From contig NZ_NFHP01000003.1 of the NCBI RefSeq assembly GCF_002159335.1, forward strand, positions 62,001-126,000: a stretch of 64,000 nt of DNA. Direction: 5' to 3'. The translations under genes were made by a program, and so were the position numbers. Shown one piece after another: positions 19,643 to 63,591 of the stretch. The stretch's first letter is position 1. Each line of letters begins with the position of its first letter. The DNA comes from Collinsella sp. An7. GTDB lineage: Bacteria > Actinomycetota > Coriobacteriia > Coriobacteriales > Coriobacteriaceae. The notes beneath the pieces are model-generated. The model saw only the letters and a list, made by a program, of their open reading frames with translations, searched no databases and had not been told where the DNA came from.

Positions 19643-19722
19643 GGGGCCGCCGGGTGCCACCTCCGGAGACGAGCGCTTCGCTCGTTACACGATCGTCTCC
19701 GAAGGTGGCACCCAGCGGCCCC
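19643..19722. repeat. hairpin element I
   Basis: Arms 19643-19672 and 19693-19722 pair at 28 of 30 positions (start GGGGCCGCCGGGTGCC) with a 20-nt loop. A second, nested 7-bp hairpin ACGAGCG-CTT-CGCTCGT sits at the apex. It starts 20 bases after the ftsH stop and could serve as a terminator, but lacks a T run. Confidence 0.75.
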
Positions 19723-45143: not shown

Positions 45144-47237
45144 ATGGCCGAGACCCGTGATTTCCTGTTTGAGATCGGCACCGAGGAGATGCCCTCTGCA
45201 CCGCTCATGAACGCCGTCAAGCAGTTTGGTCCGCTTGTGGAGCGCGGCCTTTCCGAGGCCGGGCTCGCCCATGGCGAGGCGCGCGTCATCTCGTCGCCGC
45301 GCCGCCTTGCCGTGATCGTGGCGGACGTTGCCACCGCGACCGACGAGGTCCATGAGGTCAAGCGCGGCCCCGCGGCGTCCATCGCATTCGACGCGGACGG
45401 CAACCCCACCAAGGCGGCCGAAGGCTTTGCGCGCAAGTGCGGCGTGCCCGCGACCGAGCTTATCCGTCGCGAGGACACCGACGGTCGCGAGTACGTCTTT
45501 GCCGAGAAGAACATCCCCTCCGCCCCGGCCGAGCCTATCCTTTCCGCGCTCTGCGAGCGCGCGATCGCCGGGCTCGAGTGGCCCAACTACCGCAGCCAAC
45601 GCTGGGGCTCCACGCACGAGACCTTCGTTCGACCGATCCGCTGGCTCTGCGTGCTCCTGGGGAGCGAGGTCGTGCCCGTCCGTTATGCAGACGTTGTCTC
45701 GGGGAATACCACTCGTGGGCACCGCGTGCTGGGGCCGGGCGAGCATGTCGTGGCCGAGCCCGCCGTCTACGAGCAGGTGCTCGAGGAGGCCGGCGTGCTC
45801 TCCGAGGAGCGCCGCCGCGCCGTCATCGCCGAGGGTATCGCACGCGTTGAGGCCGAGCGTTCGGGCGCGCACGTCGACACGCCCAAGAAGGTGCTCGACG
45901 AGGTCGTGAACCTCTGCGAGTGGCCGACGGTGCTCGTGGGACGCTTCGATGAGGAGTTCCTCGCCGTCCCGCACGAGATCATCTGCGAGTCGATGCTCTC
46001 CAACCAGCGCTATTTCCCCATCTACGACGCTTCGGGCGCGCTCACCCGTGAGTTCGTGGTGGTCGCCAACGGGCGCCCCGAGTGCGCCGAGACCATCATC
46101 GACGGCAACGAGCGCGTGGTCCGCGCCCGCCTCTACGACGCTAAATTCTTCTACGACGAGGACCTCAAGGTCTCGCTCGAGGAGTTCCGCTCGCGTCTGG
46201 CTGAGGTCGCCTTCCAGGAGAAGCTCGGGAGCGTCCTTGCCAAGTCTGAGCGCATCGAGGACCTTGCCCTCGCCATCGCGCACGAGGCGCGCGTGGGCGC
46301 CAACACCGCCTCCGACGCGCAGCGCGCCGCCCACTTCGCCAAGGCCGACCTCGTATCCGGCGCGGTGGTGGAGTTTACGAGCCAGCAGGGCGTCATGGGC
46401 GGCTACTATGCGCTTGCTGCGGGCGAGACGCCTGCGGTGGCCGCAGCCATTCGCGACCACTACCGTCCGCGTTTTGCCGGCGATGCCCTTCCCGAGGGCA
46501 CGGCCGGTTGCATCGTGGCCGTGGCCGATAAGCTCGACACCATCGCCGGCATGTTTGCCATCGGCGAGCCCCCGACGGGCTCCAAGGACCCGTTTGCGCT
46601 CCGTCGCTCGGCCATCGGCGTGATCAACATCCTGCGCGAGCGCCTGGGCTGCGGCTATGAGGCCCTTGTGGCGGCCGCACTCCACGCGTACGCCGAGCAG
46701 GGCATCGTTTTTGATAAAGACGAGGTCGCGGTGGCCGTGTGCGGTTTTTTGAAGGGCCGCATGGAGCAGATGGCGCGCGACGCGCACGTGCCGGCCGACG
46801 TTGTGACCGCGGTCTCGGCGGGCAGCGTCTCCGCCCCGGCCGATTTCTTCGCGCTCGCCGAGGCGCTCCGCGACGCGCGCGAGAGCGACCCCGAGACCTT
46901 TGAGAACCTCGCCGTTGCCTACGCCCGCGCAAGCCATCTCGCCGATACGACGCTGGGTGTGGAGGTTGACGAGTCGCTTATGGGCGAGGCCGAGCGCGAG
47001 CTCCTCCTCGCTACGGACGCCGCCCGCGACGCCGTTGCGCTTGCGCTCGAGAAGAAGGATTTCGCTGCGGTCATCGCCTCGCTCGCGGCGCTCCGCGAGC
47101 CCATCGACCGCTTCTTTGAGGACGTCATGGTCATGGACGAGGACCCGGCGCTCCGTTCGAACCGCCTCAAGCTTCTCAACCGCTTCGAGACCGTCTTTGC
47201 CGACGTGGCCGACATGGGCGCACTCGCCAAGAAGTGA
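45144..47237 (+). CDS. glyS: glycyl-tRNA synthetase beta subunit
   Basis: 697-residue beta subunit that contributes tRNA binding. Family features are [15 protein letters not shown] at the start, [55 protein letters not shown] and [15 protein letters not shown]; the DALR-like anticodon-binding part ends with [23 protein letters not shown] 45144 follows the glyQ stop without a gap. The stop lies inside hairpin J. Confidence 0.96.
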
Positions 47238-47303
47238 GAATCCGGGGACGGGTGCGTTTTTCTCACTTTTGAGAAAAACGCACCCGTCCCCATATTCTCA
47301 CTT
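47232..47303. repeat. long near-perfect hairpin J overlapping the glyS stop
   Basis: Arms 47232-47265 and 47270-47303 pair at 32 of 34 positions (only CC/AT unpaired at 47242-47243), with a 4-nt CTTT loop. The arm contains GGGGACGGGTGCG and TTTTTCTCA. It covers the glyS stop codon and ends inside the -35 box of the rplS promoter. It shares the GGGGACG motif with element K. Confidence 0.85.
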
Positions 47304-47329
47304 GCGTGCTGAGAACACTTGCGTATACT
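47302..47329 (+). promoter_or_regulatory. sigma-70-like promoter for rplS
   Basis: TTGCGT at 47302-47307 and TATACT at 47324-47329 with a 16-base spacer, 71 bases before rplS. The -35 overlaps the end of hairpin J by two bases. Confidence 0.65.
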
Positions 47330-47400
47330 TATTTCGTTTGTCAGACCCATGTGTCGGCCCACGGGTGCGGCACCTCTGGAGTAAGAGTAAGGAACGAGAA

Positions 47401-47742
47401 ATGGACTACATCCGCGCCATCGAGCGTCAGCAGATCCGCGAGGACATCCCCCAGGTCCGCGTCGGCGACAACGTCAAGGTGCATTACCGCATCAAGGAGG
47501 GCGACCGCGAGCGCATCCAGGTCTTCCAGGGTGACGTTATCCGCATGAGCGGCGCTGGTGCCCGCGAGACCTTCACCGTCCGCAAGATCTCCTTCGGCGT
47601 GGGCGTTGAGCGCACCTTCCCGCTTCACAGCCCCAAGATCGGCAAGCTCGAGGTCGTCCGTCACGGCCGCGTGCGTCGCGCCAAGCTCTACTACCTGCGC
47701 GATCGCGTGGGCAAGGCTGCGCGCATCCCCGAGAAGCGCTAA
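47401..47742 (+). CDS. rplS: 50S ribosomal protein bL19
   Basis: 113 residues. bL19 sits at the subunit interface. Diagnostic stretches are [35 protein letters not shown] and [15 protein letters not shown], ending [28 protein letters not shown] precedes ATG 47401. In most bacteria it directly follows trmD; here lepB and glyQS intervene and it has its own promoter and terminator. Confidence 0.97.
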
Positions 47743-63084: not shown

Positions 63085-63170
63085 GGCGTGGGGCACGGTT
63101 GTTCTTTCCTCGCTGGTCCTCGGGCTTCGCCCTGCGGAATCGCTCGGAAAGAACAACCGTGCCCCACGCC
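63085..63170. repeat. hairpin element F (conserved loop class 1)
   Basis: Perfect 25-bp arms at 63085-63109 and 63146-63170 (start GGCGTGGGGCACGG) with a 36-nt loop at 63110-63145. The loop is the exact reverse complement of the loop of element G; its centre is GGGCTTCGCCC, a small nested hairpin. Confidence 0.9.
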
Positions 63171-63505: not shown

Positions 63506-63591
63506 TCCCGGGGCGGGCGAGCTGTATTCTGAGCGATTCCGCAGGGCGAAGCCCGAGGACCAGCGAAGAATTCAGCCCGCCCGCCCCGGGA
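63506..63591. repeat. hairpin element G (conserved loop class 1)
   Basis: Arms 63506-63530 and 63567-63591 pair at 23 of 25 positions (start TCCCGGGGCGGGCG). The 36-nt loop 63531-63566, with TTCCGCAG and CGAGGAC around GGGCGAAGCCC, is identical to that of element F in inverted orientation, while the arms share no similarity with F. Confidence 0.9.

Follow-up and report, generated by a model that had tools for sequence, protein, structure and literature searches.

A probable REPIN-like miniature element of the TIR/TIRYT type at the end of glyS in Collinsella sp. An7

The closest described counterparts of the palindrome considered here are short inverted repeats associated with Y1 transposases. 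TIRYT proteins are Y1 transposases with a Y---NP motif and a C-terminal helix-turn-helix (HTH), and are flanked by inverted repeats bearing a GGGG[AT][CG].. motif, according to the relevant sections of PMC3733652 and of PMC6006769, where they form subclass 2.1. The corresponding TIR repeats, or TIRtrons, are described in the same sections as dispersed singles and dimers, some of them self-complementary (Di Nocera 2013, PMC3733652; Quentin 2018, PMC6006769). Among the repeats with GTAG feet, compensatory changes in REPIN hairpins have already been reported in the pertinent part of PMC3116915, while the account in PMC3733652 has the termini of GTAG REPs often supplying the stop codon TAG of the flanking ORF and REPs lying close to gene ends. 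The CGTC REPs of Di Nocera carry CGTC or a variant at one unpaired end, have a stem of 8–9 bp and are listed in the passages concerned of PMC3733652 as having no associated transposase. For E. coli, PMC12306157 cites Liang 2015 in its discussion for the observation that REPs less than 16 nt from a stop codon stall ribosomes (260 of 496 REPs), this stalling being reported to lead to mRNA cleavage; the count given by PMC12306157 itself places 446 of 4,072 predicted REPs within that distance. The main text of PMC3733652 contains no mention of Actinobacteria, Collinsella or Eggerthella, and none of the best-ranked matches in the open-licence literature linked Coriobacteriaceae with RAYT, TIRYT or REPIN elements. 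The host of the repeat described here, a member of the Coriobacteriaceae, differs from those treated in that main text.

The window analyzed is a stretch of 64,000 nucleotides from Collinsella sp. An7. Within it, glyS (45144–47237, + strand; 697 aa), named in an earlier note as the glycyl-tRNA synthetase beta chain and having full-length or nearly full-length relatives at 80 loci, is followed by the coding region of rplS (47401–47742, + strand), the name of which has the same origin. Between the two lies a palindrome of 72 nt (47232–47303) with arms of 34 nt each (47232–47265 and 47270–47303), which are 94% complementary, and a loop of 4 nt. Its score of 28 compares with 8 or less for the best palindromes in 40 dinucleotide shuffles of 46900–47600, which excludes chance, and the predicted RNA fold has an energy of −62.7 kcal/mol (z = −12). 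The near-perfect palindrome that the earlier note had recognized from the letters is therefore borne out. The same holds for its placement of the glyS stop codon within one arm (TGA at 47235–47237, + strand, as given by the reading frame and the comparison of copies), and the end of the other arm does coincide with the start of the rplS −35 box, the inferred hexamer extending over the final two palindrome bases. Comparison of 23 copies places the element proper at 47235–47300, as an inverted pair of 31-nt units running from TGAGAA to TTCTCA. The core sequence GGGGACGGGTGCG matches exactly in the left unit (47244–47256, + strand) and in the right unit (47279–47291, − strand), and nowhere else in the window. 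At either side of the 72 nt, the outer 2 bp probably extend the element by chance. Over the 23 copies, only the first base past TGAGAA/TTCTCA pairs clearly above chance (16 of 23 copies versus 9.4 expected, p 0.001), the second pairing in 11 of 23 versus 7.4 (p 0.07). A candidate explanation in which the element inserts into pre-existing palindromes, hinted at by the AAG/CTT flanks, was rejected, as flank pairing at positions 2–5 totalled 26 in the 23 copies versus 25.9 after shuffling.

A search of the organism's own genome (G000) with the palindrome region listed 60 matching pieces. The repeat family comprises 23 loci, and its unit has the form TGAGAA-nnn-GGGGACGGGTGCG-TTTTTCTCA. Eighteen loci have two units, namely 11 short inverted pairs whose core starts are 35–36 nt apart, the glyS copy included, and seven long pairs (66–70 nt apart) with a central segment, mostly a hairpin, in between; the other five are single units. 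The count leaves out C1:357822 and C11:118228, which match a 17-base pattern with one and two mismatches, respectively, and are without the stem, as well as the TIR of the transposase itself and matches to other cores. The family resembles the REPINs formed by GTAG REPs with RAYTs in being a repeated inverted pair of short palindromic units, and, by the part of Bertels and Rainey 2011 (PMC3116915) that treats these features, in having compensatory changes between the two sides and many repeats per few transposases. Unlike GTAG REPINs, it has a constant motif inside the hairpin, only 23 copies and no GTAG foot; the foot is mostly (G/C)TGAGAA, and a GT[AG]G foot was encountered among the 23 copies only as GTGG at C11:206709 (GTGGGAA), a variant of GTGAGAA. 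It is also unlike the CGTC REPs, since its CGTC is internal to the unit and the genome has a transposase that shares the core. As with the TIR repeats, the glyS-type repeat is dispersed in single and paired units. At one copy, C11:253163 (G000:C11:253130–253175; about 1466–1510 of L002), a tandem GTGAGAATCCGGGG lies alongside the repeat and looks like slippage at the edge of a hairpin.

A Y1_Tnp profile search of this genome gave one match, the only Y1/HUH tyrosine transposase gene detected. It is an open frame of 271 aa with the motifs NHVH and YIHANP and a C-terminal HTH (HTH_7, 28.3 versus a cut-off of 23.8), and the protein scored 75.6 bits against NF047646 (REP_Tyr_transpos), just below the cut-off of 80. 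In its HuH and Y---NP motifs and its C-terminal HTH it is like TIRYT of subclass 2.1. The gene is flanked by GGGGACGGGTACA and GGGGACGGGTGCG in inverted orientation and, taken more widely, by inverted GGGGACGGGTACAAATTGTGCCA and GGGGACGGGTGCGATTTGTGCCA, which share their core with the repeats and differ from them in the remainder. The 13-nt core of the repeats is exact in one of these TIRs and has two mismatches in the other, and the shorter core GGGGACGGGT is found in inverted copies on both sides. So is GGGGACGG, which is one base off the TIRYT consensus GGGG[AT][CG]A[CG] (GGGGWSAS). Unlike in the described TIRYT elements, the stem of the repeats differs from the TIR of the TIRYT in the same genome. 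Since these TIRs share the core with the repeats and are without the TGAGAA/TTCTCA stem, a matching autonomous partner may have been lost or may be a different one.

A match to the Y1 protein was obtained in 53 of 65 genomes of the family Coriobacteriaceae. At 30 Y1 loci of the family, the best flanking inverted repeat had a GGGAC[GA] core in 19 (counted by eye, two of them one-sided) and a GGGTC or GGGGCC form in three more, and such a TIR was not found at the remaining eight; many of these inverted repeats are hairpins, each with a different stem. Within the genus, all six genomes with a Y1 match contain one or both of two repeat patterns, with 11 to 41 pattern matches, whereas G001, G004 and G008 have neither a Y1 protein match nor an exact match to either pattern (6/6 versus 0/3; Fisher 0.012), three of the nine genomes being only 81–89% complete, including one of the three without a Y1 match. 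Taken with the structure of the repeat, we regard it as highly probable that the glyS–rplS palindrome is a non-autonomous, REPIN-like miniature element of the TIR/TIRYT type, probably spread by the Y1/HUH transposase of the genome. An origin as a MITE of an ordinary DDE insertion sequence, or by template switching at hairpins with no transposase involved, is improbable. Arm-to-arm templating would explain why, in 14 of 18 pairs, the two arms carry the same four bases before the core, against an expectation of 4.0 with arms exchanged at random among loci (the glyS copy, with ATCC and ATAT, being among the four that differ), and the tandem run beside the C11:253163 copy fits the same origin. Matched arms are, however, also expected if whole pairs are copied, and both the core common to the TIRs of the Y1 gene and the co-occurrence of gene and repeats across the genus argue against it. 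Nor was a target duplication evident at C12:272978, the one nearly clean empty site, where comparison with G005 and G006 leaves one base of difference and puts the insertion one codon before a TGA.

Across the 65 family genomes, the 18-mer GGGGACGGGTGCGTTTTT was counted 37 times in G000 and once each in G005 and G039, the remaining 62 having no copy, and its reversed form gave no match in any of them. The G005 copy is at the same gene end as the C12:207901 copy of G000, and a search of 21 genomes with a 66-base query added a weak match in G009 (77%). By these counts, the expansion of the family is specific to the species. The element is present between glyS and rplS in none of the eight congeneric genomes, about 330 bases upstream of rplS having been read in G008. 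This absence, together with the 23 dispersed copies, supports the suggestion of the earlier note that the palindrome might be a recent insertion tolerated at the boundary. In G002, G003 and G007, a different GGGGAC element (TTTGGGGACGGGGTCGTTTCGTGC) lies 10 nt past the TAA of glyS, and the TIR core of the G007 transposase is similar to it. In G005 and G006, the junction consists of AAGAAGAAGTAG, 26 nt and CTTGCC, versus AAGAAG, the element and CTTGCG in G000, so that, relative to these two, G000 is short of about 32 nt, the native stop and one codon among them. Bases would have been lost on insertion at glyS, with the congeners too distant for a precise insertion there to be proven. Congeneric glyS genes whose end was read terminate in TAA or TAG, most of them one codon later than in G000. 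Other features were seen at this junction. The glyS–rplS gap of G004 (L200) contains GAGAATTCTC, which is like the two ends of the element fused, and perhaps a deletion scar; it could also be due to chance. After glyS, Collinsella stercoris and a MAG from the Coriobacteriaceae (L030 and L035) have palindromes that are perfect and of a different type, GTTTGGGGTCAGACCCCAAAC and ATTTAGGGTCAGACCCTAAAT.

The window contains further hairpins. Two long ones at 63085–63170 and 63506–63591, about 415 bp apart, have the centre CTCGGGCTTCGCCCTGCGGAATCG in common, in opposite orientation, and each has its own, different and nearly perfect outer stem; with up to three mismatches allowed, this centre had no other match in G000 and none in the eight congeners. 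Another hairpin, with arms of 33 nt, lies at 19643–19722. Its centre, GACGAGCGCTTCGCTCGTTACACGATCGTC, is found once or twice in seven of the nine genus genomes (up to three mismatches) and, in G002, G007 and G008, follows serS with other outer stems.

The inferred rplS promoter (47302–47329, + strand) consists of a −35 hexamer TTGCGT (47302–47307) and a −10 hexamer TATACT (47324–47329) with a spacer of 16. Its identification derives from comparison with relatives, several of which have a putative counterpart (TTGCCA, TATACT) at the same place; a consensus promoter scan did not list it. The same scan returned two overlapping promoter-like matches within the palindrome itself (47269–47298; average of 0.0 in shuffles), with TTGAGA at 47269 and a second hexamer ending at 47296 or 47298. 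They are directed towards rplS and could add some transcription in that direction. The earlier note had proposed that the palindrome may couple 3' end formation of glyS with initiation at rplS, i.e., a regulatory hairpin specific to this locus which terminates glyS. The great stability of the predicted fold, its position between the end of glyS and the −35 box, the other hairpins at this junction in some relatives and the promoter-like matches would all suit such a role. We nevertheless consider it very improbable, and the proposal finds little support, because the same sequence stands next to other, unrelated genes at 22 further loci and is missing from all eight congeneric junctions, while relatives without it still have the promoter at the expected place. 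Moreover, on the strand tested, the promoter-like pattern occurs in just five of the 23 copies and is therefore not a trait of the family. An intrinsic terminator was likewise rejected, as the sequence past 47303 (GCGTGCTG) has no run of T after the full hairpin; the single terminator-like site is a five-pair match in the left arm (0.6 in shuffles). An effect of the element on rplS is thus unlikely.

Returning to the REPIN-like element, its most regular feature is its position relative to stop codons. In 13 of the 23 copies, the adjacent gene terminates with the TGA at the end of the element, in five further copies a native stop lies within 6 nt, and the remaining five are elsewhere. Thus, 18 of 23 copies are within 6 nt of a stop codon, a distance picked after the data were seen, versus 7.4% of the intergenic and gene-end positions of the window, or 10.2% once divergent gaps are omitted (binomial P about 1e-16 and 3e-14, respectively). 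Gene ends were called with a codon-usage score of our own, without annotation, which missed rplS and took an opposite-strand frame there. This score yields 12 of the 13 stop-donor loci, C11:221640 being assigned from its open frame and eight relatives with the same gene end. TGA-ending frames at C12:272978 (left), C1:377, C1:384875 and C16:107279 (left) are probably not genes and were excluded. At most stop-proximal loci, the same gene in relatives ends within one or two codons of the element. For C11:221640, C14:150174 and C12:30861, it ends exactly there in all relatives read, while for C1:154850, and in half of the relatives read for C15:32109, it runs four or more codons further. The 80 relative stretches were hand-picked, mostly as best matches, with one relative each for C12:51451 and C11:334161 and none for C11:206709. 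A native TGA stop as the general target was rejected, since most relatives read end these genes in TAG or TAA and, at C12:272978, the TGA at the native place persists past the element. Some of the genes with copies near their ends we take, from their C-termini, to be recF, glmM and serS.

As with the GTAG REPs, a repeat terminus gives the stop codon of the flanking ORF; here it is TGA in place of TAG, and it is present at both ends of the element. The family is a new one of an already known kind, stop donation having been published for GTAG REPs, and what seems unusual is the strictness of the placement. Like the stop-proximal REPs of E. coli, the hairpin lies within 15 nt of a stop codon; by contrast with them, the element provides the stop codon in 13 of the 23 copies.

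In relatives, a second family had its core within 20 nt of a stop at 20 of 40 places examined in G003, G005 and G006, out of 83 matches listed in six genomes, with distances taken from the core and not from the edge of the element and no gene end called at one place (L363). In G005 and G006 (L269 and L270), the gene read as recF has a TGA directly followed by a unit of the second family (CGTGTTTTGACCCCGTCCCCAAA in G005). The end of recF thus carries this other family in G005 and G006 and the family of the palindrome in G000, i.e., different families at the same gene end, depending on the species.

That the stop-codon habit reflects survivorship only, with random insertion and loss of copies in coding sequence or near promoters, is quite possible, if somewhat short of an even chance. 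The in-frame TGA is the only way to read the element without additional residues, so that selection would keep that reading, and at C12:272978 the insertion one codon ahead of a TGA which is still there after the element is compatible with this view. Survival in gaps alone is nevertheless insufficient for an excess of 18 in 23 over 7.4–10.2% of available positions, and the second family is also found near stops. Tentatively, and as a rather doubtful extension, we speculate that hairpins moved by single-strand transposases have translation stop codons as preferred insertion sites and carry a TGA of their own at each end. They would re-end genes cleanly with a strong hairpin placed on the terminating ribosome, and would act as mobile translation-termination attenuators turning over between closely related gut species.

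In the pathway that we propose for the TIR/TIRYT-type element, two inverted 31-nt hairpin units, each with a GGGGACGGGTGCG core, would spread within the species, probably by means of the TIRYT encoded elsewhere in the same genome acting on single-stranded hairpins, and the pair would most likely be copied by a single-strand HUH/Y1 reaction. Copies would survive where they lie at a gene end with their TGA in frame. In glyS, the element occupies the 3' end in place of about 32 nt that, in G005 and G006, include the final codon and native stop, and it is the TGA of the element that now terminates glyS. In the RNA, a very stable hairpin would start from the glyS stop codon, and at most the 3' stability of the glyS mRNA or its translation would be affected. 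Any such effect on glyS expression is suggested by analogy with the stop-proximal REPs of E. coli.

The palindrome is in this way placed in a known class, probably as a member of the TIR/TIRYT type, to which it adds a measurable regularity, that copies sit on stop codons, in frame, well beyond what the space open to them would give. Copies lie near the ends of important genes, i.e., glyS and the putative recF, glmM and serS. The site choice of Y1 transposases becomes testable through closely related genomes with and without the transposase and through shared gene ends that are occupied by different families.
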